From Pseudomonas sp. LRP2-20 (GTDB lineage: Bacteria; Pseudomonadota; Gammaproteobacteria; Pseudomonadales; Pseudomonadaceae): a DNA stretch of 64,000 nucleotides. The notes beneath the pieces were generated by a model that did no database searches, was not told the origin of the DNA, and saw only the letters and a list, made by a program, of their open reading frames with translations. Below are positions 38,559 through 55,133 of the stretch, in pieces (position 1 is the stretch's first letter; each line of letters begins with the position of its first letter). The DNA is taken from the NCBI RefSeq assembly GCF_024349685.1, contig NZ_AP025944.1:3850001-3914000 (forward strand). Direction: 5' to 3'. A program made the translations under genes and the position numbers.

Positions 38559-38801
38559 ATGTGCAAAGTCACCCTAGACGAATGGGCGCACGATCACTTC
38601 AGGACGCCGCCCAGCAGCAACACCCTACGCCGTTGGGCCCGCGAGGGCCTGATCACCCCGGCCCCGGTAAAGCACGGACGCAGCTACTATGTTGAGGCTG
38701 ATGCCTGCTACCGGGAGCCCGAGCCGCTGCCCCGCGTTCCTATGGGCAGCTCCCTTGTAAACCGAATTGCGAGTGCACGATATGGCGCCCAGGCCGCGTA
38801 A
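38559..38801 (+). CDS. xis: Excisionase (Xis-like)
   Basis: This 80-residue protein resembles lambda Xis: LDEWAHDHFRTPPSSNTLRR, then WAREGLITPAPVKHGRSYYV, a winged helix that bends DNA at attR. It overlaps the integrase start by 20 bp. A GCCGCC/GGCGGC hairpin lies just before its ribosome site. Excision after induction requires it with Int. Confidence 0.88.
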   Translation: MCKVTLDEWAHDHFRTPPSSNTLRRWAREGLITPAPVKHGRSYYVEADACYREPEPLPRVPMGSSLVNRIASARYGAQAA

Positions 38802-39888
38802 GCCAGGATCAAAGGACCTACCGCCCAACCTCTACAGAAAGACCGACAAGCGAAACGGGGTTATCTACTACACGTATCGCGACCCCGTGAGCAACCGAAT
38901 GTTTGGCTTGGGCAGCGATAAGGCGAAAGCGATCGAGGAAGCGGTCGCCGCCAACATGACCCTGCAAAAATTCTCGCCTACCTTAGCCGTAAGGATGGCG
39001 CCAGAGCCAACAGTCAAGGACAGAACGTTCTGCGAGTGGATAGACGAGTATCGGCATGTCCTAGTTGAGAGGGAGCTTTCGTCCTCCACCATGCGCACAG
39101 TTCACTACATTCTCATTCGTTTGGTGGCCGTTTTCGGCGACAAAGGAATGCGATCTATTACCACCATGGATGTCGCCGACTATCTCACTGGGTTTGTTAA
39201 AGCTGGGAAGGGGCAAATGGCAAAGGGTATGCGCTCTCAGCTGAAGGACATTTTCATGGAGGCAATGGCTAGGGGTTGGGTGGATAGCAATCCTGTTGAA
39301 GCAACCCGAGCGGCCAAGGTGAAGGTTAAGCGCCAGCGACTCAGCCTGGAGCTGTGGAAGGCGACTTACGAAGAGGCGAAGCACCCGTGGCTAAAGCGAG
39401 CCATGGAACTTGCCATCCTCACCGGCCAGCGCCGGGAGGACATTCTCTCTTTCGTGTTCAAGGATGAGGTGGACGGATATCTGCAAGTCGTCCAGGCGAA
39501 GACAGGAGCCAGACTCAGAATCAGCACCAGCCTTACACTGGAATGCGTGGGCCTGAACTTGGGTGAGGTGATTCGGCGCTGTCGCGACAGGGTGATTTCA
39601 AAAAACTTGATACATCACCATCGGACTGTTGCGCGAGCAAAGGCAGGCACTCCACTCATGCCGGATACCGTAAGCAAAGAGTTCGCCGCTGCGCGAGATC
39701 GTGCAGCAGCGAAACTCAAGCTGGACCTCGGCGACAGCCCGCCATCGTTCCATGAGCAAAGATCCCTGGCCGCACGATTGCACGAGGAAGAAGGCCGAGA
39801 CCCTCAGCGTCTGCTGGGCCACCGGACGGCAAAAATGACCGATGTGTATCTCGATAGCCGTGGCTCTGAGTGGATAGATGTTGCGTAG
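38782..39888 (+). CDS. int: Tyrosine integrase (lambda Int type)
   Basis: This protein is 368 residues from the ATG at 38782 inside xis. The N-terminal arm-binding domain has DLPPNLYRKTDKRNGVIYYT and YRDPVSNRMFGLGSDKAKAI, as in lambda Int. The catalytic domain has TGQRREDIL (Arg), FHEQRSLAA (His-x-x-Arg), LLGHRTAKMTDVYLD (second His and nucleophile Tyr). It ends the prophage; the attachment site should lie just downstream. Confidence 0.95.
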   Translation: MAPRPRKPGSKDLPPNLYRKTDKRNGVIYYTYRDPVSNRMFGLGSDKAKAIEEAVAANMTLQKFSPTLAVRMAPEPTVKDRTFCEWIDEYRHVLVERELSSSTMRTVHYILIRLVAVFGDKGMRSITTMDVADYLTGFVKAGKGQMAKGMRSQLKDIFMEAMARGWVDSNPVEATRAAKVKVKRQRLSLELWKATYEEAKHPWLKRAMELAILTGQRREDILSFVFKDEVDGYLQVVQAKTGARLRISTSLTLECVGLNLGEVIRRCRDRVISKNLIHHHRTVARAKAGTPLMPDTVSKEFAAARDRAAAKLKLDLGDSPPSFHEQRSLAARLHEEEGRDPQRLLGHRTAKMTDVYLDSRGSEWIDVA

Positions 39889-40073
39889 GTTTGTAATTTA
39901 GTTTTTGGGAAATATTGGGGAGGATTTGGGGATAAAAGAAAAATCCTTTAATTTCAAAGCCTTAAAGGATTCCATGTTTATGGGCCAGATACACTGCAAT
40001 ACAAAACCCCGCAGGCAAGCACCCACGCGCTCGGTACACTGCGCCCATTCCCCCTTGAACAGGAACGCTGCGA
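39889..40073. other. Probable attachment-site (attR/attL-end) region
   Basis: Between int and the host response regulator the GC content falls sharply. There are three TTGGG(G)A-type repeats at about 39904-39932, candidate Int arm sites. A perfect 10-bp inverted repeat follows (AATCCTTTAA with TTAAAGGATT, 39942-39971). After about 39975 the sequence regains host composition. The core cannot be fixed because the other prophage end is outside the window. Confidence 0.55.
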
Positions 40074-40814
40074 ATGGAACATGTCGATCACATTCTGATC
40101 GTCGATGACGACCGTGAGATCCGCGAACTGGTCGGCAACTACCTCAAGAAGAACGGCCTGCGCACCAGCATCGTCGCCGACGGCCGGCAGATGCGCGCCT
40201 TCCTCGAAGCCAACAGCGTCGACCTCATCGTCCTCGACATCATGATGCCCGGAGACGACGGCCTGCTGCTGTGCCGCGAGCTGCGTGCCGGCAAGCACCG
40301 CAACACACCGGTATTGATGCTGACCGCACGCAACGACGAGACCGACCGCATCATCGGCCTGGAAATGGGCGCCGACGATTACCTGACCAAGCCGTTCTCC
40401 GCACGCGAACTGCTGGCCCGTATCAATGCCGTGCTGCGTCGCACGCGCATGCTGCCGCCGAACCTGACCATCAGCGAGAGCAGCCGCCTGCTCGCCTTCG
40501 GCCAATGGCGGCTGGACACCACCGCCCGCCACCTGCTGGACAGCGAAGGCACCCTGGTGGCGCTCAGTGGTGCCGAATATCGCCTGTTGCGCGTGTTCCT
40601 CGACCATCCGCAACGGGTGCTCAGCCGCGAGCAGCTGTTGAATCTGACCCAGGGCCGCGAAGCCGATATCTTCGACCGCTCCATCGACCTGTTGGTCAGC
40701 CGCTTGCGGCAGCGCCTGGGCGACGATGCGCGGGAACCGAGCTGCATCAAGACCGTTCGCAGTGAAGGCTATGTGTTCTCGCTGGCCGTGCAACTGCTCG
40801 AGTCACCGTCATGA
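40074..40814 (+). CDS. OmpR-family response regulator
   Basis: This 246-residue protein has a receiver domain (residues 5-118) with Asp11/12/13, phospho-acceptor Asp55 in DLIVLDIMMPG, Thr in MLTARN and Lys in DYLTKPFS. A winged-helix DNA-binding domain (about residues 140-240) has LSGAEYRLLRVFLDHPQRVL. It pairs with the histidine kinase overlapping by 4 bp. Beside a copper/RiPP locus a metal or envelope signal is plausible, but the ligand is unknown. Confidence 0.93.
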   Translation: MEHVDHILIVDDDREIRELVGNYLKKNGLRTSIVADGRQMRAFLEANSVDLIVLDIMMPGDDGLLLCRELRAGKHRNTPVLMLTARNDETDRIIGLEMGADDYLTKPFSARELLARINAVLRRTRMLPPNLTISESSRLLAFGQWRLDTTARHLLDSEGTLVALSGAEYRLLRVFLDHPQRVLSREQLLNLTQGREADIFDRSIDLLVSRLRQRLGDDAREPSCIKTVRSEGYVFSLAVQLLESPS

Positions 40815-42094
40815 AGTGGCCGCGCACCCTGGCCTCGCGCCTGGCGCTGATCTTCTTCACCGGGCTGGTACTGGCCTATGGGCTGTCCTTCAGCCTGCAG
40901 GCGTATGAACGCTACATCAGCAGCCGCTCGATGATGCTCAGCAACCTGGAACTGGACGTTGCCACCTCGGTGGCCATCCTCGACCGCCTGCCTGCCGCCG
41001 AGCGCGCTGCATGGCTGCCGCGCCTGGAGCGACGCACCTATCGCTACCGGCTCGACGAAGGGCTGGCCGGCCAAGCGATGCCAAGCAGCGACCCACCCAT
41101 GGCCGCCGAGTCGATCATCAAGGCCATTGGCAGCCAGTACCGCCTGACCTTCCAGGAGATTCCCGGCCCTAATGCGCACTTTCAGGCGCATCTGCGCCTG
41201 GCCGATGGCGCACCGCTGACCATTGATGTCACCCCGGCCCCCGTCCCGGTAGCGCGCTGGCTGCCGCTGGTGTTGCTGATCCAGCTTGCCGTCCTTCTGT
41301 TCTGCACCTGGCTGGCGGTTCGCCTGGCCATCGGGCCACTCACTCGCCTGGCGCAGGCGGTTGATGACCTCGACCCAGACAAACCCGGCGTGCTGCTGGA
41401 CGAAAGCGGCCCGCGCGAGGTGAAGTACGCTGCCGTTGCATTCAATGCACTGCAGGCACGGATCGCGGCCTACCTGAAAGAGCGCATGCAGCTGCTTGCA
41501 GCCATTTCCCACGACCTGCAAACGCCGATCACCCGCATGAAGCTGCGGGTCGAGGTGATGGATGAAGGGGTCGAGAAGGAAAAACTCTGGCACGACCTGG
41601 ACGCCATGGAGCATCTGGTGCGCGAAGGCGTGGCCTACGCACGCAGCATGGACATCAACACCGAAACCCCGTGCCGGATCAACCTCGACGCTTTCCTCGA
41701 CAGCGTGGTGTTCGACTACCAGGACAGCGGCGCCCAGGTGCAGCGCCACGGCAATACCGGCAGCCTGCTGGAAACCCGCCCGCATGCCCTGCGCCGGGTA
41801 CTGGTGAACCTGGTGGACAACGCCCTGAAGTTTGCCGGCAAGGCTCAGCTTGAGGTCAGCCGCGAGCACGGCAAGACGCTGATTCGGGTGCTGGATGAAG
41901 GCCCGGGGATCCCCGCCGAAGAACTGGACGAAGTGCTCAAGCCGTTCTACCGGGTAGAAAGCTCGCGCAACCGCAGCACGGGCGGTACCGGCCTGGGGCT
42001 GGCCATTGCCCACCAGCTGATCCAGGCCATGGGCGGCAGGCTGACCTTGAGCAACCGCAAGAGCGGCGGTTTGTGCGCCCAGATCGAGCTGTGA
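40811..42094 (+). CDS. Sensor histidine kinase
   Basis: This 427-residue protein has TM1 at residues 8-28, a periplasmic sensor of about 115 residues and TM2 at residues 150-174. A HAMP-like linker follows. The HisKA box AAISHDLQTPITR has His234, the N box is LVNLVDNALKFAG, and the G boxes are VLDEGPGIP and GGTGLGLAIAH. The periplasmic domain has no cysteine or methionine cluster. It phosphorylates the upstream regulator. Confidence 0.93.
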   Translation: MKWPRTLASRLALIFFTGLVLAYGLSFSLQAYERYISSRSMMLSNLELDVATSVAILDRLPAAERAAWLPRLERRTYRYRLDEGLAGQAMPSSDPPMAAESIIKAIGSQYRLTFQEIPGPNAHFQAHLRLADGAPLTIDVTPAPVPVARWLPLVLLIQLAVLLFCTWLAVRLAIGPLTRLAQAVDDLDPDKPGVLLDESGPREVKYAAVAFNALQARIAAYLKERMQLLAAISHDLQTPITRMKLRVEVMDEGVEKEKLWHDLDAMEHLVREGVAYARSMDINTETPCRINLDAFLDSVVFDYQDSGAQVQRHGNTGSLLETRPHALRRVLVNLVDNALKFAGKAQLEVSREHGKTLIRVLDEGPGIPAEELDEVLKPFYRVESSRNRSTGGTGLGLAIAHQLIQAMGGRLTLSNRKSGGLCAQIEL

Positions 42095-42238
42095 CGGCAG
42101 AAAACGGCGGCCGAGCGGGCCGCCCTACAGCCGCCGTGCCTACAATCCGATACATAAAGCCACTTTCACCGACACACTGCAGATACCCGTCCCGCCCACA
42201 CTCCCGGTCACACAACGACACCCCGGGAGACCTCATTC

Positions 42239-42853
42239 ATGAAGCCGCTCACCCTACCCTCCGGCTGGAAGCTGTTCGCCGCCCTTGCGGGCTTGACCTT
42301 GCTCATGACCGCCGTGGTCCTGCTCGGCGCTGCGCCAGGTGCGGATGGCCTGCGCAGTGCCATTCGCGCCACGGCGCGCAGTTCATTCGCGTTGTTCCTG
42401 CTGGCCTTCCTGGCCTCGTCGGCAGCCACCCTGCTGCCCGGCATCGGCAGCCGTCGGCTGCTTCGCGAGCGGCGCTACCTGGGCCTGGCCTTCGCCTTTT
42501 CGCACACCGTGCACGGTGTGCTGATCTACCGCTATGCCCAGCAGTTTCCTGAACTGTTCTGGGCCGGGCGCACGGCTACCTCGAGCTTGCCCGGCAGTAT
42601 CGGCTACCTGTTCCTGCTGCTGCTCACCCTGACTTCGTTCAAGGCCCCGATGCGGCTGCTCGGCGGCCGAGCCTGGAAAACCCTGCACAGCACCGGCATG
42701 TGGGTGTTGGCCGGGGTGTTCTGCCTGTCGTTCTACAAACGCATCCCCATGGGCGGCTGGTACCCACTGGCCTTCGCCCTGATGTTCAGCGCCATCGCCC
42801 TCAAACTGACTGCAAAGCTGGCGCCCCGCCGCGCTGCCAACGCCCTTTCCTGA
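42239..42853 (+). CDS. Ferric-reductase-like transmembrane protein
   Basis: This 204-residue protein has about six membrane segments and histidines in [11 protein letters not shown] and LHSTGMWVL, placed like the heme ligands of ferric-reductase/MsrQ-type domains. GGGAGACC precedes ATG 42239. It lies between the two-component system and the DoxX/HvfX gene, 145 bp after the kinase, which leaves room for a regulated promoter. It may move electrons for metal or disulfide chemistry. Confidence 0.75.
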
Positions 42854-42867
42854 AGCGAGATACCCAC

Positions 42868-43353
42868 ATGAATGCACTGACCCGTACTTTCAACCAAGTC
42901 GATCACCTTGGTAGCTGGACTGCCGACCTGCCGTTGCGGCTGTTCCTGGCCTGGGAGTTTTTCGAGTCCGGCCTGGAGAAATTCAACGGCAGCAACTGGT
43001 TCGGCGATTTGCAGGGGAGTTTCCCGTTCCCCTTCAACGCCCTGCCAGCAGAGCTGAACTGGCAACTGTCGATGTGGGCAGAACTGCTTCTGCCGCTGCT
43101 GCTGTTACTTGGCCTGGGCACTCGGCTGGCGTCGGCGGGGCTGATGGTGGTGACCGTGGTGGCGATTGCCGCCGTGCACTGGCCTGCGCAGTGGTCGAGC
43201 CTGGCCGAGTTGGCGCAAGGCTATGCCATTACCGACCAGGGGTATGGCAACTTCAAGTTGCCGCTGATCTATCTGGTCGCGCTGTTGCCACTGCTGCTCA
43301 AAGGCTCGGGTCGCATGAGCCTGGACCACTGGCTCAAGGCCCGCACACGGTAA
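42868..43353 (+). CDS. DoxX family membrane protein (HvfX/BufD-like)
   Basis: This protein is 161 residues from the ATG at 42868 with four membrane segments. [20 protein letters not shown] at the N-terminus is the DoxX signature. DoxX proteins of this subgroup accompany oxazolin/bufferin gene sets and have been linked to copper handling. It is convergent with the hvfC-like gene, 38 bp away, with a terminator between. Confidence 0.83.
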
Positions 43354-43361
43354 CGACACGC

Positions 43362-43386
43362 CGGGGCTGCATGGCAGCCCCGTTCT
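43362..43386 (+). terminator. Terminator between convergent doxX and hvfC-like genes
   Basis: A perfect 9-bp stem CGGGGCTGC/GCAGCCCCG with ATG loop is followed by TTCTC. The stem may serve both strands. Confidence 0.7.
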
Positions 43387-43391
43387 CCCAC

Positions 43392-44087
43392 TTACCGGGT
43401 ACCGACGATGATGCCCTGCCCACGCAACTGCTCAAGCATCGTCAACCCCTCTTGCAGGCTGGCCGACAGCGCCTGCAGACGGTCCCGCCCACGGCCTTGC
43501 AGCACCAGCAAGCGGTAGGTCATGTGGGAAAGACGGGCAAACCGCACACTCAGACCGGCATCGCGATAAACCAGCAACAAAGTCGGTGCAACAGGCGCGA
43601 TTTGTGGCCGAAAACCGGGGCCCATGCGGTCGACCGGCCAGTGATAGGCCAATACCTTTGCCGTGCACGACAGCACGGGTTCTGCTTCCAGCAAATCGCC
43701 CTTCGGGTCATGGGGCGGGTCTTGGGCATCACTCAGGTAAAGCTGTGTCTCGACGCACTCGTAATGGGCCAGTTCCACCTCCCACGAAGCCTCTGGTTGC
43801 ACGTCCTGCAAGTAGTCGACAAAAGCACCGGCGATTTCGGTGAACAATGGCGTTTTGCAGCGGTAGCTGGCATAAAAATCATGCACCCGCGCATGCCAGC
43901 ACTGCTCGCCAAGCGTTTGCCGAAGCACTGGAAAACTGTTCGCCAGCAGCCCTTCGATGGTGCCGTAGAACAACTCGCGGTACACCTTCAGGCGCCGAGC
44001 CTCCAGCCCCGGAGGGGGGGCATGGCGCAGCGGATCTCGCAGATGCCGCGCCAGGGTGAATTGCTGGTTACGCAATGTGCTGCTCAA
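43392..44087 (-). CDS. DUF2063 partner protein of MNIO enzyme (HvfC/BufC-like)
   Basis: This 231-residue protein has an N-terminal DUF2063 domain ([13 protein letters not shown], then [34 protein letters not shown] and FVDYLQ), and a C-terminal domain with [20 protein letters not shown]. In oxazolin and bufferin pathways this protein recognises the precursor and works in complex with the DUF692 oxidase. It overlaps that gene by 20 bp. Confidence 0.9.
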
Positions 44088-44907
44088 GCGCTACCTCCTG
44101 TTGAATGGCTCGCATGCGCTCGACCTCTGCGAGCAAATCGGCCAACGGCGGGTAATTGAAATCGCGCTCCAGGACCGAAGGCACAGCCCCGAAGCGCTTG
44201 CAGGCACTGGCGAACAGGCCCCATACAGCGTCCTTCACCGGCGCGCCATGGGTATCGACCAGAAGATCCGGCGCCTCCTGGTAATGGCCCGCCACATGCA
44301 TCCCTGCCACGCGTGCTGCGGGTAGCCCGCGCAGGAACGCCTTGGCGTCGTAGCGGTGATTGCAGGCATTGACGAAGACGTTGTTGACGTCCAGCAACAG
44401 GTCGCAGTCGGCTTCATCGAGCACTGCGCAGACGAACTCCAACTCAGTCATCGCCTGATAAGGCGCGGCGTAATAGCTGATGTTCTCCACGGCAATTCGC
44501 CGCTGCAATTCATCCTGCGCCTGGCGGATACGCGCACTGACCTGATGCACGGCTTCTTCGGTAAACGGTATCGGCATGAGGTCGTAAAGGTACCCATCGT
44601 CGCTGCAGTAGCTCAGGTGCTCGCTGTAATGGCGCACCTGATAGCGATCCAGAAAGCGCCGAAGCTGCTGCATGAAGTGCCGGTCCAGTGGCAAGCTCCC
44701 GCCCAAGGACAGGGACAGCCCATGGCAGCTCAGCGCATAGCGCTCGGCCAGTTGCGCCAGGCCTCGGCCATAGGCACCGCCAACGCCGATCCAGTTTTCC
44801 GGTGCGCATTCCAGAAAGTCCACTGCACCTGGGGTGAGGTCGAGCAGTTCGGGCATCAGGCCACGGCGCAGGCCGAGGCCGGTGAGCAAGGGTGTGCTGT
44901 TCATCAT
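44068..44907 (-). CDS. DUF692 multinuclear non-heme iron oxidase (HvfB/BufB-like)
   Basis: This protein is 279 residues from the ATG at 44907 (AGGGGATTCA upstream). The TIM-barrel metal ligands are visible: [60 protein letters not shown] and LERDFNYPP. Enzymes of this family modify cysteines of precursor peptides to thiooxazole or oxazolone-thioamide groups. The hairpin upstream separates it from the precursor gene. Confidence 0.93.
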
Positions 44908-44922
44908 TGAATCCCCTGTCAA

Positions 44923-44957
44923 GAAAAACGCCCCGCCTGACATGCAGGAGGGGCGTT
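44923..44957 (-). terminator. Attenuator/terminator between RiPP precursor and enzymes
   Basis: A minus-strand stem AACGCCCC/GGGGCGTT with a second inner stem CCTG/CAGG is followed by UUUUU. It lies 22 bp after the precursor stop and before hvfB, so most transcripts probably end here and favour precursor. Confidence 0.8.
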
Positions 44958-44978
44958 GTCGTTGAGTCGGCAACTCAA

Positions 44979-45233
44979 TCAGGATTTGCTTTTATCGGGG
45001 CCGGCCTTGCCACTGCTACCGCATTTGCCTTCACCACACTTGCCTTCGCTTTTCTCGGCTTTGCTATCGCCACCGCATTTGCCTTCACCACATTTACCTT
45101 CCGCTTGCGCCTTGGCATCAGCCAGCAGGTAGCACTGCGGCAGCGGTTCGACGGCAAACGCGCTGCTACCGACTGCCATGCCGCCAATCAGTGCAGCGCC
45201 GAGCAGGCCAAGGGTTTTACGTGCTTCAGTCAT
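44979..45233 (-). CDS. Oxazolin/bufferin-type RiPP precursor with four EGKCG motifs (HvfA/BufA2-like)
   Basis: This protein is 84 residues from the ATG at 45233. A signal peptide (residues 1-27, SAFA/VEP) is followed by Cys34. Two tandem pairs of EGKCG motifs follow at residues 45-54 and 63-72, then a Gly/Lys/Ser tail. EGKCG is the motif whose cysteines are modified by the HvfB/HvfC pair in Haemophilus; related bufferins bind copper in the periplasm. The modified and unmodified cysteines cannot be told apart from sequence. Confidence 0.88.
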
Positions 45234-45366
45234 GATGCAGCTCCACTTTGCTTGAGAAGTGGAGCCATTAGGCCGCAGTTCTGCCACGCGGCTGAATCAC
45301 CGAAATTGGCATGTCATGTAGGAGTCGCCCTACCGTGCTGACAGATACGCCCCCTGCACTCGCCGA

Positions 45367-45927
45367 TCAATCCTCCAGGGGTTTAGGGGGAGCGGCTGGC
45401 TTGGCTGGCTTGGCTGGCTTGGCTGGTTTGCTGTCCTTGGCCTTGGGTTCAGGTACCGCCGCCACAGGTTCCGGCGCGCTCACGGCCTTTTCACTCGCCG
45501 GTAGCTCATCGACTGCCTTGAAGATCACCTGCGTGTCGATCTTCCCGCCTGATTCATCATCCTTGAGCACGTGACGCTCACCGTCCATGCCCACCAGGAT
45601 CACCTTGGTGCCCTTGCTGGCGCCCAGCTTGAGTTCACGAATAAGGGCCATGGTGGTCTGCTGTTCGAGGTTCTTGTCCTCACGCTTGCCCATCATCTGG
45701 GCAACGCTGAACAGCACCAGTTTGCGCTCCTTGAACCCCGCCTGGGTGGCAGGATCCTTGAGATCCTCGTTCAACCCCCTCAAGGTGGGGTCGGCACTGC
45801 TCGGAGCGATGACGACCAATGGCCTGGCCTTGCCCAGTTCCTTGGCCAGCGGCGCATCACTGTCAGCCGCAAGCAGTGGGCCAGCAACAGCGAGCAAGGT
45901 GGCGAGGGTCATTGACCGGACGAGCAT
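45367..45927 (-). CDS. DUF4174 periplasmic protein with C-terminal KPA repeats
   Basis: This 186-residue protein has a signal peptide (residues 1-20) and a thioredoxin-like DUF4174 domain (RPLVVIAPSSADPTLRGLNE; LVLFSVAQMMG; GTKVILVGMDGERHVLKDD). A Pro/Lys/Ala tail has KPAKPAKPAKPA, encoded by a near-perfect DNA repeat (45398-45428). No redox cysteines are seen. It is upstream of the RiPP precursor, 133 bp away, in the same direction. Confidence 0.85.
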   Translation of the reverse strand: MLVRSMTLATLLAVAGPLLAADSDAPLAKELGKARPLVVIAPSSADPTLRGLNEDLKDPATQAGFKERKLVLFSVAQMMGKREDKNLEQQTTMALIRELKLGASKGTKVILVGMDGERHVLKDDESGGKIDTQVIFKAVDELPASEKAVSAPEPVAAVPEPKAKDSKPAKPAKPAKPAAPPKPLED

Positions 45928-46142: not shown

Positions 46143-49100
46143 TCATGGTGCCTCCACCCCTTGCAGCGCTTGCCGTGTCAACGCCAGCTTGCGCTCATGC
46201 TGATCCACTTCGATCACGGCCTGCAGGGCCTGGATCTCAGCTTCGGAATGCAGGGCCGCCAGCTGTTTGCGGTAATGGTCAGGAACACGCAGAGCCTGTG
46301 CGTGAGCCTTCTCCAGATAGCGCTGCCAGAAACGGCACTGCACCATCCACTCTGCCAGGTCGTCGTCGGTCTCCTGCCCTGTCACCCAGGCCGCAGCTTG
46401 TGCTGCCCGTCGGGCGTCGACCAGGGCGGAAGCAGGAAAACGCATCATCTGCGTGTTGATCGGCAAATCGAGTTCGTCGCGCAAGTGAATGTTGTAAGCC
46501 AGCACCACCTCGATTTCCTCGAGCTCTGGCGATCGTTGTTGCCGGGAGCGAAAGTCGCGCAATGCATAATCATTGAGCCGCGCCAGCCGCCACAGGCGTC
46601 TTGCCAGCCTAGCCAGCACCTGAGACTGACTGGCACCGGCCGCCTCGTGCTCGGCGTGCCACACCAAGGCCCTTACCTCCAGTTCACTGAAATGGATGGC
46701 GGCGCCGTCGCCACAAGTCTCAATCTGGGCAGCGGCAAACAGCTCGTCGCGCAAGGGGGCGAAGTCAGCCATCTGCTGCATCATTTCCATCACCCGCCGC
46801 GCCAGGTCGCTCCCTTGCGCGCCGCTGAAATCGGCGGACTGAGTGAGTTCCTTGAGCAGGCTGAAGAAATGTTCGCATCCGTCCTCATCCTCAAGCGTTG
46901 ACCAGAGCGAGGCAAACGGTGCACGTTGCTCATGGCCCTGGCGATCCAGCCAGAGCAGGCGGGTCGGCACATTGCCAGGCGCTGGCAACACGCCCCCCAT
47001 GCCTCTGGCGACCCTGGCTTCGATCAGCCGCTCGCGTTCGGCAGGTGATAGATCATTACCCTCCAGGGTGACCTTGCCACGACGCCAGACCGGCGAGTCG
47101 TAAAACCCTTCGGGCAGCTCAGCAAGCCGGTCGCCTTCCATATCGAGCACCTGCAGGTCCTCCAGCTCCATCACACCGATCGGTAACCGCGTGATGCCCG
47201 TGTCGCGCAACCTGAGCTCGACCAGATCCCGCATCGCCTGCACCGAGAAGTTGGCACGCAGCGGGTTTCTAGACAGGTTCAGGTAAAGCAGCGACTCGCA
47301 GCCGGCTAGCAGCGTGGACTGAGAAGGGTCCAGTTCGATCTGGTTGTCATAGAGGTCCAGCGCCCGTAAGCGGCTGAGTTGCACCAGTTGTGCTGGCAAC
47401 CGCTGCAAGTTGTTGCCCGACAATTCCAGGGTACAGACATTGGGAAAGGCGCGCAGGAACCCGTCTGGCAGTTCTTTCAGACCCGATTGCTCAAACTGCA
47501 GCACCCTGACATGCGGCAAGCTCACCTCGACAGGCAACTCCGGCAACTCGTCCACGTCACGGCCGATCCAGCGCCAGCTGTACCCCTCTTCGTAACGGTT
47601 GCGGTAACTCTGCTGAGGCACAATATAGCGCCAGCAGTCGATCAGCCCGCGCCTGAACTCCCGCCGCGCCTGGCGCTGCCTGGCAGTGGGGGCACGATGG
47701 GCCCACGCCTTGAGTTGACGATTAAGCACCTGCAGCTGCTGCTCGAGTTCCCCAATCAGTAGTGCAACGTCGCGTCCCGACTCGCGAACATCCTCCAGCC
47801 AACGGCGAATCTGAGGCTCGTCGTCGTCGAAATCCGGGTACAGCTCCGCCACCCGTGCTGCCAGCGAGCGCGGCCGGAACGTGAAGGCATCGAACCAGCC
47901 TGGGCAGCAACTGAGCGGATACCCGACACACTTGCCGACCCGTTGCGGCGCAACCCACCATGCCGGCTGGCGTGCTACACCGAGCATCGCTGGCATCTGC
48001 GCACGCTGCTCGACCGCGCGCTCGGCAAAGGCCTGCCGCAAGCTAGCTGCCAGCGGCTGCGCAAGCCCCAGCGCGTTCCACTGTGCGGCAGGAAGCGCGC
48101 GGGCCATGACCTCGAACAAATCACCCGGCTCACCCAGCCCTTGTGCATCGCGAAGTGCGAACTGACCTTGCCGATGGATCAGGTCAATGGGTGTTCCTGA
48201 GCCTCGGGTGGTCAGCAGCGGTCCCGGCGCCTGGTCGTCGAACAGCCGCCAAGCAGCCCTATTTGCGCCCTGGTCAATGTTCTCAAACAGGCGCAGCGCA
48301 GCGCGCGCCAGGTCAAGGTGCTGCGGGGTATCGATCTGCATTGCCTCGATCACACGTGAGACCCGGGCATGTATCGCACTGGCCCTTGCCAACCTGGCCA
48401 GCCCGAGGGTGATGCGGCCGAAGTCCAACAACGCCAGGCGATCGGCATTGGTCGCCGCACGCAGCACAGCATCGGCGCCCAGCACATGCAAACTGGGGAA
48501 CGCCCGGCGCAGTGTGGCGATGCTCGCAGACTCAGGCAGTTGCAAGTCTTCGTACCATTGCTGCCACAACGCCTGGCGGCTGGCCCAGGCCAGTTCGCCC
48601 AGCGCGGGTCCAGACAAGCTTGCCGCACCGGGCAAGGCCCGGGCATAGGCGAGCGCGTCCGAATCCTCGGTCACACGCCCCGCACGCAAATGTTCGATCA
48701 GTTGTGCCACGCGCCCGGCCAGGCGCGCGCGCAACACGGCATCGACCAGCGCCGGCTCCGGCGCCCTGCCGTACATGTGCAAGGCGCGCAGATCATCACT
48801 CGCCAGCCCCTGATTGGCCAGCACCTGATCGACCTGACGGTCGCTCAACTGACTGAAGGGACTGCCCAGGCGCCGGAACAGGTAACGCGGGTCAGCCCAA
48901 TGGGAAGGCCGTTCGCACCATAAGCGCCAGGCGCCAGCGCCGTTATGGCGTAACAGGGGGCCGTGCCCCTGCTGTGGTCGTATCTGCCATTGTTCGTCCT
49001 CGCTGCGCTGCACGATGCTGTACCAATGCCCGTCCAGTTCCACCAGGTCATGCTCACCCTCGGCATGGATACCCAAGGCATCCGACTCGCTATCCGCGCC

Positions 49101-50579
49101 GGGCGCCGCGCGCCGGTATGCCTGCAGGTTCTGGTCCCAGAGTTTTTCACTGCCATCTTCCAGTTGCGTCGGCACCAGGCCATCGACAAAGCTGGAGCCC
49201 GTCCAGGCCCGCCGCGCAAGACCAATGGCAACCCCGGTGAGCGCGACCAGTGCCACATCCCTGGCGACCTTGGTCAAGTGTTCCAGCGCTGCTTGGCTAT
49301 CCCCTTCGCGCCAGTCGTCGATACCCTGAAATACCTCGCCCAGCAGCTCCCAGACGGTTACCGCCAGCATCACGCCGCCCAGCGCCGGTACGAACAACCC
49401 TGCCAGGCTCCCCAAAGCCCATCCTTGCTGCTTGAACTGCTGGTCGCGTTGCGCCTGCAGGGCTCGGTCCACGTGGGCCGTTGGCGTGACGAGCATCGCC
49501 GCATCGTCCTTTATCTGGGCAATACGTGCTGCTGGCAAATGATCGAAAAGCGCCTCGCTGACGCTCAGCAGGTGCCCCGTCAGGCTGCCGCGGGTATAGG
49601 CGGCGAAGAATCGCTGCTGATCACGAAGCTTGATGAAGCGGCAGAAGAACTGCTGGTATTGCCGATCCCCGAGGCGCTGCTCCAGCACTTCGCCAACAAA
49701 ACCTTGCAGGCTCCGGTGGCCGCTCCAGGCGCCATTGCGATCGCCCGGAATGTACACGAGGATTCGCCGTGTGGTATTGCGCAACAAACCCTCGTCAAGC
49801 ACCTGCAGCACAATGACCTGTTGCACGTCGCAGCCACTGAGCTGCAGTTGCCGATAGCGCACCACCGAACCGTCCAGCTGCTGCAGGCGCGATTCCTTCG
49901 CCAAGGTGATGATCAGTTCCAGTTCACGGTCATCCAGCGCCCCGTCGCTTCTTGCCCTGTAGGCATCGACCAGCAGACCCTGGCGCAGCATCTGCGCCAG
50001 GGTTGCCCTGAACGCGTCATCCAGCACGGCGTTCAGATGCTGCTGATAAGCCGCGCCCAGGTCCAGCTTGCGGCAGAGCCCCGCAAAGTCAGCCGCCGAC
50101 CGTTGCCCCAGCTCCTTGCCCAACACATCGAACAGGCCATTGCGCCTGGGCTCACCCTCCCCGGCCGCTTCCTGGGCAGTGAAGTTATTCAACGCAGCCT
50201 GATACAGCGGCGTGTCGGTGTAGTCCCGGTCCATCTGCGGCCAGCGCCCGGTGGCCCATGTCGGCTTCTCGGTGAAGTAGTAATACCAGCGGCGCAGGTA
50301 CAACAGGTCGACATCCACGTCGCGCTCGTATCGGCCCGCCAAGGCTTGGTTCAATGCCCGCTTGACGAAGGCATCGACAGGCTGCAGACCCGCGAGGCGG
50401 GTAGCAAGCTGATGTCGATGCACGAGGCAGGCCTTGAGCGCCTGGCTGACGGCATCCAGCTGCACGCTATCCAGCCTGCCCAGCCAGCCAGGCAGGCGCT
50501 TGGCGATCAGCTTGTCTTGATATGCCTGCTCCATGGCCAGATGCTGTTCCGCCGTGAGCGCTCGATCAGGTATGCCCAT
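46143..50579 (-). CDS. NEL-type E3 ubiquitin ligase effector with LRRs, copy 1
   Basis: This protein is 1,478 residues from the ATG at 50579 behind GGAGGCATTT; nine upstream codons from a GTG are less likely. N-terminal region: dermonecrotic-toxin-like (DUF6543) sequence with a hydrophobic hairpin near 400-425. Leucine-rich repeats run from about 1035 to 1200 (LPDGFLRAFPNVCTLELSGN and following). The C-terminal NEL domain has the catalytic CxD motif ETCGDG with Cys1289. NEL enzymes ubiquitinate host eukaryotic proteins. No secretion signal or secretion genes are nearby. Confidence 0.88.
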   Translation of the reverse strand: MGIPDRALTAEQHLAMEQAYQDKLIAKRLPGWLGRLDSVQLDAVSQALKACLVHRHQLATRLAGLQPVDAFVKRALNQALAGRYERDVDVDLLYLRRWYYYFTEKPTWATGRWPQMDRDYTDTPLYQAALNNFTAQEAAGEGEPRRNGLFDVLGKELGQRSAADFAGLCRKLDLGAAYQQHLNAVLDDAFRATLAQMLRQGLLVDAYRARSDGALDDRELELIITLAKESRLQQLDGSVVRYRQLQLSGCDVQQVIVLQVLDEGLLRNTTRRILVYIPGDRNGAWSGHRSLQGFVGEVLEQRLGDRQYQQFFCRFIKLRDQQRFFAAYTRGSLTGHLLSVSEALFDHLPAARIAQIKDDAAMLVTPTAHVDRALQAQRDQQFKQQGWALGSLAGLFVPALGGVMLAVTVWELLGEVFQGIDDWREGDSQAALEHLTKVARDVALVALTGVAIGLARRAWTGSSFVDGLVPTQLEDGSEKLWDQNLQAYRRAAPGADSESDALGIHAEGEHDLVELDGHWYSIVQRSEDEQWQIRPQQGHGPLLRHNGAGAWRLWCERPSHWADPRYLFRRLGSPFSQLSDRQVDQVLANQGLASDDLRALHMYGRAPEPALVDAVLRARLAGRVAQLIEHLRAGRVTEDSDALAYARALPGAASLSGPALGELAWASRQALWQQWYEDLQLPESASIATLRRAFPSLHVLGADAVLRAATNADRLALLDFGRITLGLARLARASAIHARVSRVIEAMQIDTPQHLDLARAALRLFENIDQGANRAAWRLFDDQAPGPLLTTRGSGTPIDLIHRQGQFALRDAQGLGEPGDLFEVMARALPAAQWNALGLAQPLAASLRQAFAERAVEQRAQMPAMLGVARQPAWWVAPQRVGKCVGYPLSCCPGWFDAFTFRPRSLAARVAELYPDFDDDEPQIRRWLEDVRESGRDVALLIGELEQQLQVLNRQLKAWAHRAPTARQRQARREFRRGLIDCWRYIVPQQSYRNRYEEGYSWRWIGRDVDELPELPVEVSLPHVRVLQFEQSGLKELPDGFLRAFPNVCTLELSGNNLQRLPAQLVQLSRLRALDLYDNQIELDPSQSTLLAGCESLLYLNLSRNPLRANFSVQAMRDLVELRLRDTGITRLPIGVMELEDLQVLDMEGDRLAELPEGFYDSPVWRRGKVTLEGNDLSPAERERLIEARVARGMGGVLPAPGNVPTRLLWLDRQGHEQRAPFASLWSTLEDEDGCEHFFSLLKELTQSADFSGAQGSDLARRVMEMMQQMADFAPLRDELFAAAQIETCGDGAAIHFSELEVRALVWHAEHEAAGASQSQVLARLARRLWRLARLNDYALRDFRSRQQRSPELEEIEVVLAYNIHLRDELDLPINTQMMRFPASALVDARRAAQAAAWVTGQETDDDLAEWMVQCRFWQRYLEKAHAQALRVPDHYRKQLAALHSEAEIQALQAVIEVDQHERKLALTRQALQGVEAP

Positions 50580-50648
50580 AAATGCCTCCGTCGTTTTCGA
50601 AGGCACGAGGTTAGGCGGTTCAAGTGCCTGGCCCAGGCTAGATAACTA

Positions 50649-53600
50649 CTACTCACGCAGCGATGGCTGCGGTACAACCGGCGGTATGAAGACCAGGGGC
50701 AGGTTGCGGGAAATGGCTTCGCGAGAAAGCGCTTCCAGCAGGTTACGCTCGCGCTGCTGGATGCGCGCTTGCAGGCGGTCGATCTGCACCTGCCCGGCGT
50801 CGCTTGAGAGCAGTGTCTCCAGTTCATCGTACAAGGCTTGCGGCACACGCAGCCGGGCCTGGTACTGTTGCGTCAGGTGCTCGCGCCAGAACTGTTGGGT
50901 AAGCAGGTAGTCAACCAATGCATCGCTTGACTGGGCAGACCTGACCAGGCGCTGGGCATTGACCAGGTCGTAGGTTGCAAGGTTGGCCACCCCAGGGTTG
51001 AGCATTTCGTCATGTTCGATAGGCAGATCCAGCGTATCTGCCAAGGCCAATCGATAGGCCAGCGCGAACTCGATCGACTCTTCCGGGCGGCCCGCTGCAA
51101 TGGCATGCATCCCGGCCACCGTATCCAGCGTGTCCAGCCGCCAGCACTGCGCCCCCAGGTGCAGCAACGCGCATTCGCGCTCGCCTGACAATTCGCCGTG
51201 CAAAGCCTTCCAGACCCGCACTCGCACTTCCAGGTCACTGAAGCGCAGGGTCGCATTGTCCTGGCAATGCTCGGTCAGCGCATGCTCGTACAACTGTGCC
51301 TGCAACGCCGGGCGCTCGGACATATAGGCCAGCATTCTGAACACTCGCAACGCCAGGTAGCGGGCCAGAAACCCGTCCTGAAAATCGGCCGAGGTGGTCA
51401 GCCGCTCCAGCAGGTGGAAGAAGTCCCTTGAAGCAGGCTTGCCATCGAGCTTGCCCCAGATGTCGGCCATCCGGTCACGCTGCTCACGGGCAACCAGGTC
51501 GAGCCAGCGCAGCTTGAGCGGTACTTCGCCGTCGCCCACTTCATGCCAGGCGTCCGCAGCCAACGCCAGTGGATTGCCGCTAAGCCGCACCCTGGCGCCA
51601 AGCCACAGCCTGGAACGGTAGAAGGCGAATGGCAGCGCAGCAATGCGGTTTTCGCCCAGGTCAAGGGTCGTGAGCCGCGCCGCCTGCATCACCCCCACGG
51701 GCATCTCGACCAACTGCGTGTTGCACAGCAACAATGTGCGCAGATCAGGCATGCCCTCCAGCGCAAACGCGCGCGCCAGCGGGTTGTGCGAAAGATTGAG
51801 GTAGACCAGTGAACCGGCACGCGCCAGCGCGCTATGCAGGGGTTCGTCCATTCGCAACTGGTTGCCCGACAGGTCCAGCACCTTCAAGCGAGCGGCCATG
51901 GCCTCAGGCAGCGACAGGCTGCGCAACCGGCAGTTGGTCACGCTCAGTGAACTCAGCGAGGGGAAGGCCCGCAGGAAGCTTTCCGGCACTTCGCGCAGTT
52001 GCAAGGTACGCAAGCCGATTTCCGACACATGGGCGAAGCTGACGTCGGGCGGTAGTGCGGGTAACGCGTCCAGGTCGCTGCCGTAGGTGCTGAACATGTA
52101 GGCGTGCTCTTCGGCAACCGCACCAAGCTGGCGCGGCACCTGATAGCGCCAGCATTCGAGCAGCCCTTGGGCGAACTCCCTGCGTGCCTTCCAGCGCCAG
52201 GTGCGAACGGTGGAAAACTGCCAGGCCCTGAGGCACTGGCGCAAGGCCGTGAGCTGTTGCCGCAGCGCTTGCAACTCGGTAGCCGGGCTTCGTTGCGACG
52301 CTCGCATGTCATCGAGCCAGCGCGCGACCGCTTCGTCGTCCAGCCCAGGGTACAGATCACGCAACTCTGCCAGCAGGCTGACGGGGCGCTGCCGTTGCAG
52401 CCCGAGGCGGCGGCGCCACTGACTCAGCGGGTAGCCGACCCGACCATCACCCAACTGTTGTGGCATCCGGAAAAAGCCAGGATCACGCCTGATACCGAGC
52501 CACTCTGCCAGCTTGTCTTGCTGCCCCGCCAGGCGGCTGGCCAGCGCAGCCCGCAACTGCGAAGCGAATGGCTCCCCCAGCGCCAATACGGCACGCTGTT
52601 CGGATGTGCAAGCACTGGCCATGACATCGAACAGGTCTCCGGGCTCCCCCACGTTGGCGCCGCTTTCACCGCTGAGCTGGAACTCGCCGCCTCGATGGCG
52701 CAGGCGCCACAACGGCTGCCCGACCGTGGAGCGGCTCACCGGCTCCAGCGCGTCACCGTCGAACAACTGCCAGGCGGGGGCGTCGTCGGCACCCGGTAGT
52801 TGCTCTGCCAGCCTGAGCACCACACGGGCCAGGTCCAGGCTCTGCGGGGTGTCGAACAGCAGTGCTTCGTGCACCCGCAGGCAGCGGATGCGCCTGGCCA
52901 GTGCGGCCGCCGAGAGTTCCAGATGCGCCTGGCTGGCCCCATTCAACAGTTCCTCGGCGCCCAGGCGATGCAAGCTGGGGAAACTGCGCTGCAGCTCATG
53001 GGTATCCGCCGTGACGGGGTATTTTTCGTAGTAAAGCTGCTGCAGGAATGACCGGCGCCGGCGCCATACCTGTGTTGCCAAGGCCTGCGGCGATAGCCCC
53101 TCAGCTCCCTCCCAGCGCTGCACGCGTTCAAGCAGTTCAGGGTCAGGTGCAGTACCGCTTTGCAGTTGACTGACCAACGCCTGAATGCGCCTGGCCAGCA
53201 ATACTCGGCTCACGGAATCGACCAGGCAAGCTTGCGGCGCACGACCACAGACGTGCAAGCCGCGCAACTGATCGGCGTCGATGGCATGAATGGCCACCAC
53301 CTGATCGATCTGTTCGTCGCTCAGTTGCCCGAAATCGTTACCCAGGCGGCGGAACAGCGCATAGGGGTCGTCCCACTCCAGCGGCGATTCGCACCAGACT
53401 CGCCAGGCACCCGCGCCGTTGTGGCGCAACATGGGACCGTGGCCGTCGCGGGGCAGCACTTGCCACTGCCCGTCGTCGAGCTGGCGCACTGCGTAGAAAT
53501 GACCTTGCATGCGTACCCAGCACTTGTCGCCCAGGCGATAGATGCCCTGTTCATCAGACAGCGCCTGGACCGGGGGGGCGACGCTGCGCAAAGGCACCAT

Positions 53601-55133
53601 GTCGAACTGCCAAAGCAGCTCGCGGCCATCTTCGAGGCGAGCCGTCACCAGGCTGTCGACCAGGTTCCACTCCCGACTCAGCGCACGCACTGCCACGGCG
53701 GTGGCGCCGCCCGCAATGACGGTGCCCAGAATGCTCAGCAGATGGTCCTGTGCTGCCCGAACATCGCCCTCGCGCCAGGCCTCCGCGGCATGAAACACAT
53801 GCTTGAGCATATCCCAGGCGACTGCGGCCAGAACCACGGCATTCACTGCCGGCACGAACAGCCCCGCCAGCCCCGCCACCGTCCACAGGGCCGAGATGAA
53901 GCGCGCCTGGCGCGCTTGCTGGACCTCGCGATCGAGCACCTTGACCGGCACGGCGATGAAGGCTGCATCGGCCTTGATCTGTTCGATCCGGGCCTGGGCC
54001 AGGTGATCGAACAGCGGCAACGGATAATCGACCATGTGCTGGTCCATGTCCCGCGAAGCGGCCTCGACCACGTCCATCAGTTCAAGACCAACCCTGGCAA
54101 AAAACGACGCCTGGTCACGGCGGCGCACGAAGCGGCTGAAAAAACGCTGGTAGGCCTCATCGGCCAGGCGCTTGCCCAGCGTGCGGCGAATGAAGGTATC
54201 GAGGTCCATCGCCGCGCTCCATGGGCTGACTGGGTCTGCGGGAACATGCACCAGTACTCGCCGGTTCGCGCCGAACCCGGCGGCGCCGTCGATTTCGAGC
54301 ACGACGATCTGTTCGAGCGCGCATTGGTAAACCGTCAGCTGACGTGCCCGTACCGGGTAACCGGCGGGCGACCCAGGCCAGTCGCCACGGCACAAGGCAA
54401 ACACCAGTTCCAGCTCGGTGACCGTCAGCACTCCCTCGGCATGCGCCCGGCAAGCGTCGACCAGCCAGGTCGCCGATTGCTGCTCTTTCAATGATGCGCT
54501 CACGGCATGCCCGCTGGCAGTCTGTGCGGCGGGTGCATCGAGAATGGCGGCGAGGTGATCCTGGTAGCGTTGACCGAGGTCCAGTTTGCGGCACCCTCTG
54601 GCGAATGCCTGGGCGCTCATCAGCCGCAACGTCGAGCCATCGCGCTCCACCACGCGATCACTGCGCGGCAGGGCCTGCCCGCTGGCTTGCGCTTCGGAGA
54701 AGTTGGCCAGGGCTGCATCAAGCAGGGGCGAATCGTGACTGGCTTTTTCCCGCTGCGGCAAATGACCTGTGGCGAATTCGGGTTTGCCGGTGATGGGAAA
54801 ATAAAAATGTCGGTAGTACAGCGACTCGCAATCGACCGAGGCATACAGGCTCTCGCGCAGGGCCTGCTGCAACAGCGGTTTGCAGTACTGCTGGATGCCC
54901 TGAATACGCGCCAGGTCCAGGCTCAGCCGTTGTCGGCAGACCAGGCTGGCCTTCAGTGCCTGCTGCAGCGCCACCATTTGCCCGGCAGTCAGCGCCGGCC
55001 CTTGCCTGCCGCTTGCAGAATCCAGCCGGAGCCGGGCAACCCAGCTTGGCAGGCTGCGGGCGATCATGGCGTCCTGAAAGCCTTGTTCCATCGCCAGCCA
55101 GCGATCTTCAAGAGGGTCGTTACCTTGTTTCAT
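50649..55133 (-). CDS. NEL-type E3 ubiquitin ligase effector with LRRs, copy 2
   Basis: This 1,494-residue protein is a paralogue of the adjacent gene with the same layout: toxin-like N-terminal half, hydrophobic segment (VAGLAGLFVPAVNAVVLAAV near 460-480), LRRs from about 1055 to 1220, and a NEL domain with EHCQDNA (Cys1290). ATG 55133 follows GAAGGTGCGAC. The two genes are 69 bp apart and diverge strongly in sequence, so the duplication is old. Confidence 0.88.
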   Translation of the reverse strand: MKQGNDPLEDRWLAMEQGFQDAMIARSLPSWVARLRLDSASGRQGPALTAGQMVALQQALKASLVCRQRLSLDLARIQGIQQYCKPLLQQALRESLYASVDCESLYYRHFYFPITGKPEFATGHLPQREKASHDSPLLDAALANFSEAQASGQALPRSDRVVERDGSTLRLMSAQAFARGCRKLDLGQRYQDHLAAILDAPAAQTASGHAVSASLKEQQSATWLVDACRAHAEGVLTVTELELVFALCRGDWPGSPAGYPVRARQLTVYQCALEQIVVLEIDGAAGFGANRRVLVHVPADPVSPWSAAMDLDTFIRRTLGKRLADEAYQRFFSRFVRRRDQASFFARVGLELMDVVEAASRDMDQHMVDYPLPLFDHLAQARIEQIKADAAFIAVPVKVLDREVQQARQARFISALWTVAGLAGLFVPAVNAVVLAAVAWDMLKHVFHAAEAWREGDVRAAQDHLLSILGTVIAGGATAVAVRALSREWNLVDSLVTARLEDGRELLWQFDMVPLRSVAPPVQALSDEQGIYRLGDKCWVRMQGHFYAVRQLDDGQWQVLPRDGHGPMLRHNGAGAWRVWCESPLEWDDPYALFRRLGNDFGQLSDEQIDQVVAIHAIDADQLRGLHVCGRAPQACLVDSVSRVLLARRIQALVSQLQSGTAPDPELLERVQRWEGAEGLSPQALATQVWRRRRSFLQQLYYEKYPVTADTHELQRSFPSLHRLGAEELLNGASQAHLELSAAALARRIRCLRVHEALLFDTPQSLDLARVVLRLAEQLPGADDAPAWQLFDGDALEPVSRSTVGQPLWRLRHRGGEFQLSGESGANVGEPGDLFDVMASACTSEQRAVLALGEPFASQLRAALASRLAGQQDKLAEWLGIRRDPGFFRMPQQLGDGRVGYPLSQWRRRLGLQRQRPVSLLAELRDLYPGLDDEAVARWLDDMRASQRSPATELQALRQQLTALRQCLRAWQFSTVRTWRWKARREFAQGLLECWRYQVPRQLGAVAEEHAYMFSTYGSDLDALPALPPDVSFAHVSEIGLRTLQLREVPESFLRAFPSLSSLSVTNCRLRSLSLPEAMAARLKVLDLSGNQLRMDEPLHSALARAGSLVYLNLSHNPLARAFALEGMPDLRTLLLCNTQLVEMPVGVMQAARLTTLDLGENRIAALPFAFYRSRLWLGARVRLSGNPLALAADAWHEVGDGEVPLKLRWLDLVAREQRDRMADIWGKLDGKPASRDFFHLLERLTTSADFQDGFLARYLALRVFRMLAYMSERPALQAQLYEHALTEHCQDNATLRFSDLEVRVRVWKALHGELSGERECALLHLGAQCWRLDTLDTVAGMHAIAAGRPEESIEFALAYRLALADTLDLPIEHDEMLNPGVANLATYDLVNAQRLVRSAQSSDALVDYLLTQQFWREHLTQQYQARLRVPQALYDELETLLSSDAGQVQIDRLQARIQQRERNLLEALSREAISRNLPLVFIPPVVPQPSLRE

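Follow-up and report, generated by a model that had tools for sequence, protein, structure and literature searches.

An oxazolin-type HvfABC-X cluster of Pseudomonas sp. LRP2-20 is probably joined to an OmpR/EnvZ-type two-component system and redox-protein genes under one promoter box

We analyzed a 64-kb stretch (the window) of the 6.03-Mb genome of Pseudomonas sp. LRP2-20 (contig NZ_AP025944.1, positions 3,850,001 to 3,914,000), in which genes of the hvfABC-X type, for a ribosomally synthesized and post-translationally modified peptide (RiPP), lie beside genes for a response regulator (RR), a sensor histidine kinase (HK), and a ferric-reductase-like protein (FRD). Sequence comparison indicates that this oxazolin HvfA-B-C-X RiPP cluster is probably joined to an autoregulated OmpR/EnvZ-type two-component system (TCS) and to redox-protein genes under one 19-base box. 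The predicted box precedes RR, FRD(-HvfX), and a DUF2790 gene; among the RR-bearing Pseudomonas loci tested, most also have it upstream of hvfA, often far from RR. The original prediction had listed the genes of this locus with their strands, and both are borne out by open reading frames of coding length and by family matches. RR-HK-FRD-HvfX are encoded on the + strand and HvfC-B-A and DUF4174 on the − strand, as follows.

40074..40814, + strand: RR, OmpR-type response regulator (PF00072, 110 bits; PF00486, 77.6 bits)
40811..42094, + strand: HK, EnvZ-like membrane sensor histidine kinase (HATPase_c, 88.9 bits; HisKA, 25.1 bits)
42239..42853, + strand: FRD, ferric-reductase-like membrane protein, presumed b-type haem carrier (PF01794, 39.6 bits; cut-off, 28)
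42868..43353, + strand: HvfX, DoxX family (NF050144, 155.7 bits; cut-off, 80)
43392..44087, − strand: HvfC, DUF2063/NGO1945_C partner protein (NF050145, 238.4 bits; cut-off, 142; also PF09836 and PF22106)
44068..44904, − strand: HvfB, MNIO/DUF692 peptide maturase (NF003818, 407.9 bits; cut-off, 360; PF05114, 338.4 bits)
44979..45239, − strand: HvfA precursor, four GKCG motifs, no EF-hand (NF050137, 51.2 bits; cut-off, 19.5)
45367..45927, − strand: DUF4174 protein, upstream of hvfA in the same direction (PF13778, 68.3 bits; cut-off, 27)

The box AGATACACTGCAATACAAA or a variant of it was found upstream of RR in 19 of the 20 TCS loci compared. It is exact in 12 of these 19 RR promoters, the window included, and carries one to five changes in the other seven. 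The box shows repeats with a period of about 10 to 11 bases, and the full operator consists of two facing boxes, 29 to 31 bases apart, with the form TTTGTATC-N4-TGTATC-N13-GATACA-N4-GATACAAA. Box pairs with a score sum of at least 14 occur near 18 of the 19 RR loci scored outside the window (16 from genomes, 14 of them proteobacteria outside the genus, and 3 from plasmids), compared with none in 180 kb of Markov-resampled sequence. Both half-boxes score above 5 in 13 of the 19, and in the other five the sum is carried by one strong box; a single strong box can exceed the mark of 14, as the RR box in the window does. The remaining locus, L206, spans just 3.7 kb; in a wider stretch of the same genome (L251), two pairs immediately precede HvfX. 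The two best sites in the window precede RR and FRD.

39987..40005, + strand: RR box, AGATACACTGCAATACAAA, proximal half of the RR operator (28.0 bits, top site in the window)
42138..42156, + strand: FRD box, GCCTACAATCCGATACATA (22.5 bits, second-best site in the 64 kb; the next scores 13.3)

The FRD box belonged to the training set of the matrix that gives it 22.5 bits; an RR-only matrix gives it 1.6, which ranks it within the top 4.3% of a random-window null that contained real sites. An RR-only matrix with small pseudocounts was dropped as too sharp, its null containing real sites, and shuffled controls were used instead. Regulator binding had been predicted in two regions of the locus. 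The first, before FRD (42.1 to 42.24 kb), holds the FRD box; the second, before hvfA (45.24 to 45.37 kb), holds no box, so that binding at the local hvfA finds no support.

Across the whole genome, a search with up to two mismatches returned 80 matches, versus 40 for the reversed pattern, indicating that such matches are mostly noise. Sequence around 77 of the 80 was scanned (30 in L072 to L101, 41 in L210 to L249, and 6 in L068, L069, L070, or the window); we chose to omit the three near 2866402, 2873937, and 3634070. Among the scanned matches, pair sums of at least 14 occur only at a second hvfA, at a DUF2790 gene, and at RR, where the sum comes from the single strong box. These three are also among the six places in the genome within one mismatch of the consensus. 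The second hvfABC locus (L069; hvfA promoter near genome position 2744050) encodes an EF-hand precursor, and its box scores 22.6 bits, with a weak second half and a pair sum of 25.3. The DUF2790 gene, elsewhere in the genome, has a pair sum of 28.3.

The link between the box and hvfA extends across the genus. RR orthologs (81 to 100% identical) are present in 81 of 149 genus genomes. We scanned the roughly 360 bases preceding the first EGKCG motif region with a matrix built from RR and FRD boxes only, taking 99% of shuffles as the threshold. Of 44 loci from RR-bearing genomes, 40 have a box before hvfA, versus 2 of 10 from RR-lacking genomes, and an RR-only matrix gave 37/44 versus 2/10 in the same test; all of these are raw counts that ignore common descent, as are the co-occurrence counts below. 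The 44 loci comprise 30 fetched for the test, 13 obtained earlier, and the window, and are a subset of 61 hvfA places in RR-bearing genomes (a hand-merged list); the RR-bearing loci under the threshold are the window, L037, L043, and L136. All 10 RR-lacking hvf genomes were included; identity to RR does not exceed 57% for their best RR-like protein, and four of them yield no such protein at 1e-60. For 15 of the 61 hvfA places, an RR is found no more than 12 kb away; the other 46 are farther away or on another contig, often in draft genomes. Among the 44 tested, the box precedes hvfA in 12 of 15 near RR and in 28 of 29 at more than 12 kb or on another contig. Presence of the genes follows the same pattern in the 149 genomes: RR occurs in 52 of 62 genomes with hvfA versus 29 of 87 without, and in all 30 genomes with FRD versus 51 of 119 without. 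As a separate observation, EGKCG genes at L122 to L125, L127, L128, L134, L139, and L141 have a box above the 99% level and no HvfB or HvfC match within 5 to 8 kb; it is possible that these box-bearing genes encode orphan precursors matured by enzymes from elsewhere.

Whether a precursor gene carries the box follows the architecture of the precursor. In Pseudomonas clusters, all nine precursors with an EF-hand have the box (L163, L165, L170, L172, L174, L175, L177, L188, and L192), and all seven without an EF-hand lack it (the window, L162, L164, L168, L178, L180, and L184); this comparison drew on a 31-locus set plus the window, and 14 of the 31 loci show no precursor. Two Lysobacter precursors also have the EF-hand; there the box stands before the first gene of the series instead. 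The local hvfA, with neither box nor EF-hand tail, thus appears to have left the circuit, and the second hvfABC locus of the genome carries the predicted box.

The RR promoter of the window is itself unusual. A presumed prophage of about 54.3 kb (window positions 1 to 39982 plus genome C1:3835655-3849999, L070) separates RR from the divergent DUF2790 gene. Alignment with relatives ends at genome position 3835655 on the left and resumes at window position 39983 or 39984 on the right. The right edge contains an integrase (38767 to 39888) and two further phage-family proteins, and the junction is marked by a short shared sequence.

39982..39994, no strand assigned: right junction of the presumed prophage, shared stretch GGGCCAGATACAC, overlapping the RR box; the left copy (genome 3835655) has one base changed

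The proximal RR box is intact, and the weaker distal half lies beyond the prophage, with the DUF2790 gene and the TlpA-like gene. We infer that the RR operator has been split by the presumed prophage and that RR autoregulation would be altered in this genome.

Gene order in relatives also connects these functions. We compared 31 stretches around FRD (L037 to L067, the window excluded and two places of 39% identity left out). RR adjoins FRD in 19 of them, FRD is followed by HvfX in 22, and the cluster ends with HvfCBA in 12; other arrangements are RR-HK-FRD followed by alpha/beta hydrolases, and FRD-HvfX with a dienelactone hydrolase and a gene resembling glutathione S-transferase by eye. RR-HK-FRD-HvfX occurs with HvfBC in 16 Pseudomonas loci of the 31-locus set, some genomes being duplicated under another name. 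Two Lysobacter loci (L189 and L191) have HvfX-HvfA-HvfB-HvfC-FRD-thioredoxin (TRXL)-RR-HK in one direction throughout, and the only site above 14 bits in each lies about 165 bases upstream of HvfX, heading the series. L251, of the same class as Lysobacter, has HvfX-A-B-C-FRD with TRXL-RR-HK divergent. In rhizobial-type ("same phylum") loci, with no hvf genes nearby, the genes adjacent to the box include those for an alpha/beta hydrolase, a thioredoxin fusion (DsbD_TM match below cut-off, 24.1 versus 27.1), and an OsmC-like protein.

The original prediction had proposed the DUF4174 protein as the thioredoxin-like member of the circuit. We found no box upstream of DUF4174 in any of the eight loci scored, and this candidate was rejected. 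Its place is taken by a TlpA/AhpC-TSA-type thioredoxin-like protein, whose gene lies near RR in relatives, behind the DUF2790 gene; all 14 whole-genome stretches and one of the three plasmid stretches contain a TlpA-like match no more than 10 kb from RR. RR regularly has DUF2790 and TlpA-like genes nearby (L145, L147 to L151, L153 to L161, and the 31-locus set). DUF2790 genes of P. alloputida KT2440 were listed among the most lanthanide-responsive in the accessible part of PMC11520305, which we note as a lead only.

Taken together, the shared box, the co-occurrence of FRD with RR (30/30), and the one-direction Lysobacter series support in part the original view of a circuit fuller than the oxazolin core, one that appears to be shared in relatives; for the local hvfA and for DUF4174 the view finds no support. 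Several observations weigh against the proposed circuit. Matrix scans detected no hvfA box in the window or in its clade, so the circuit is incomplete at the window copy; conversely, RR-lacking L102 has a good hvfA box and L104 one at the limit. One RR (L065) has no upstream box, the second half-box at RR is weak in close relatives (about 3 to 10 bits), and P. putida-group FRD promoters have a single box and no pair. Elsewhere in the genome, the three other one-mismatch places have no pair, and single sites of 16.7 bits occur at L224, L240, and L242. RR is not adjacent in 12 of the 31 FRD loci, two of the three plasmid stretches have no TlpA-like match near RR, and the TlpA count is weak in any case because such proteins are common. 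To these may be added the disregard of common descent in the raw counts, a poor structure model for HK (predicted template modelling score, 0.39), and the derivation of the presumed signal, discussed below, from neighbouring genes only.

By its family matches, the window cluster is an oxazolin-type (EGKCG) HvfABC-X MNIO RiPP cluster. An EGKCG precursor had been predicted here and is present, its extent amended to 86 amino acids (44979 to 45239, with a start chosen by us). The N terminus of HvfA is hydrophobic and ends in AFA, resembling a signal peptide by eye; the protein does not reach the HvfA equivalog model NF050188 (30.3 versus a cut-off of 95) and has no Pfam match at 0.01. The hvfB and hvfC genes share a 20-base overlap. 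HvfB does not reach the bufferin maturase model NF050167 (273.7 versus a cut-off of 310), which speaks against a bufferin (Buf1/Buf2) cluster, and the third MNIO protein of the genome (L003) is distant, at 36% identity to HvfB. A sigma-70 scan of the locus called no promoters, an uninformative result. The position of DUF4174 upstream of hvfA is kept in P. putida-group relatives. Adjoining the cluster is a gene for a large effector-like protein (46143 to 50606, − strand) with ToxA_N, leucine-rich repeats, and an NEL (E3 ligase-type) domain, next to a further open reading frame (50649 to 55133, − strand); similar large genes occupy the same place in all seven close relatives (L037 to L043).

The regulatory pair qualifies as an OmpR-type TCS, with PF00072, PF00486, and HATPase_c over their cut-offs and HisKA slightly under its own (26.9). 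The best NCBIfam match of HK is EnvZ, at 165.8 bits (cut-off, 415). In a comparison of 78 kinase sequences, reaching down to about 51% identity and counting some genomes twice, His234 and Cys165, the latter in the second membrane helix, are present in all 78 and Met42 in 77. The invariant Cys165 and near-invariant Met42 form a possible redox switch.

FRD is the sole PF01794 match in the genome, and His89, His92, and His150 are invariant in all 21 aligned sequences. Its nearest named relative is from Pseudomonas sp. R28(2017) (98% identical), and those of P. monteilii, P. taiwanensis, P. soli, and others are more distant; we take the four named organisms to belong to the P. putida group. The structure model of FRD (predicted local distance difference test score, 81.7) is nearest to the membrane domains of STEAP and NOX5 (ranks 1 to 7, E 0.004 to 0.087, probability 1.00), and the fold search returned nothing at E 0.001 or better. 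STEAPs reduce iron and copper.

We consider it possible, while leaning against it, that the two gene groups are mere neighbours in this genome, with the TCS controlling FRD-HvfX and genes elsewhere and hvfCBA running independently, for example with DUF4174. Neither hvfA nor DUF4174 has an upstream box in the window, as would then be expected; the 7/7 and 9/9 division between precursors without and with the EF-hand fits as well, and DUF4174 and hvfA are co-directional in loci without a nearby TCS (L112 to L114, L117, and L129). However, the boxed second hvfABC locus of the same genome implies that hvf genes remain in the regulon, and HvfX, an Hvf maturation protein, follows the boxed FRD gene. 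A different question is what the TCS serves. A copper or soft-metal circuit, in which HK senses periplasmic copper and RR induces a copper-binding RiPP, a cupric reductase, and helpers, seems to us somewhat unlikely. The resemblance of the FRD model to STEAP membrane domains speaks for it, as do the copper TCS CusSR of E. coli, which also drives msrPQ (accessible part of PMC9302797), and the copper binding of oxazolins and bufferins, which are held to protect against copper (accessible part of PMC12452194). Yet RR and HK remain far below the heavy-metal TCS models for CusRS/CopRS/CzcRS (TIGR01387, 141.8 versus 279.2; TIGR01386, 97.8 versus 292.55). The periplasmic part of HK has no conserved Cys, and its His123 and His127 are not invariant (66/78 and 68/78), and the hydrolase, thioredoxin-fusion, and OsmC-like genes behind the same box in rhizobial-type loci have no hvf genes nearby.

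A third proposal, that FRD is an MsrQ serving methionine-sulfoxide repair in the manner of MsrPQ, is very improbable. FRD does match the MsrQ model NF003831 weakly, at 32.8 bits versus a cut-off of 130, and the genome has no PF00174 (molybdopterin MsrP) match in a search that was positive in 9 of 14 control genomes; on these two results we rejected FRD as the MsrQ of an MsrPQ pair. The YedY protein of Caulobacter is presumably MsrP. Its co-regulation with DUF692/DUF2063 operons by sigma-F, as given in the accessible part of PMC3511200, is the remaining point in favour of such a role.

We return to the circuit favoured here, an oxazolin cluster joined to an OmpR/EnvZ-type TCS, to compare it with known systems, citing papers for their accessible portions. 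Described HvfABC-X/Buf_EGKCG oxazolin clusters, the subject also of a further title (PMC13419390), likewise have an EGKCG precursor, an MNIO HvfB, a DUF2063 HvfC, and a DoxX HvfX. PMC12452194 covers the core genes, sigma factors, and NrsF of these clusters and mentions that a few EGKCG clusters contain ferric-reductase or oxidored_molybd genes; the terms "two-component" and "histidine kinase" have no occurrences in its main text or in the accessible part of PMC13097082. Here, by contrast, a TCS, its box, and a TlpA-like gene appear tied to the cluster. The Caulobacter ECF sigma-F DUF2282-MNIO (bufferin) operons likewise combine MNIO, DUF2063, and DoxX under one stress regulator with a redox enzyme, YedY; they differ in having a sigma factor with a membrane negative regulator and a DUF2282 precursor, with chromium as the metal studied, whereas the window has an OmpR-type TCS with its own box (PMC3511200). 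Similarly, the gold- and copper-responsive GIG operon of Legionella and Cupriavidus contains DoxX, DUF2063, DUF692, and a short precursor, but the precursor is DUF2282 and no TCS is among its four genes (PMC5413113). CusSR-MsrPQ of E. coli resembles the window in that a TCS connects an electron carrier of MsrQ/ferric-reductase type in the membrane with copper stress, and differs in having no MNIO peptide; the window genome is without MsrP, and its RR and HK fall below the heavy-metal models (PMC9302797). The DUF692 "Pep" clusters of P. fluorescens are listed without a TCS in the accessible part of PMC8719888. Among the matches listed, mainly from the open literature, none links a TCS to such clusters by title or abstract start, and matches for DoxX, MsrQ, HvfX, and two-component together, or for P. 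aeruginosa neighbours, contain no description of this TCS. Within the literature covered, the oxazolin core and the ferric-reductase genes of some clusters are thus already known, and the predicted TCS-box link is new.

We propose that phosphorylated RR would bind the box and activate RR, FRD(-HvfX), DUF2790, and hvfA genes. The company of the regulon (thioredoxin, OsmC-like protein, hydrolases, and FRD) suggests envelope redox or thiol stress as its theme, and HK may respond to an envelope thiol or redox disturbance, whether from an oxidant, an organic peroxide, or an electrophile; excess copper would be one of its causes. FRD with HvfX could carry electrons across the membrane to re-reduce periplasmic partners, candidates being the TlpA-like thioredoxin, Cu(II), or cysteine-rich precursors, and mature HvfA may bind copper as a copper trap. 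A bolder version, which we regard as a long shot, would have a widespread envelope-redox TCS, with no earlier description in the literature covered and with HK Cys165 as its switch, recruited in gammaproteobacteria to run copper-binding MNIO RiPPs. FRD-HvfX, as a dedicated unit for membrane electron transfer, would then reduce Cu(II) or the thiols of the precursor and thereby enable the peptide to trap Cu(I).

In the literature examined, we found no description of how oxazolins are switched in Pseudomonas or of the roles of HvfX and the reductase-like protein. With an operator predicted, the regulator conserved, and the targets few, both the switching and the protein roles can be tested directly, and the genomes supply a natural contrast between clusters with and without the regulator. 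At stake is whether copper peptides are part of a redox response or of a metal response.

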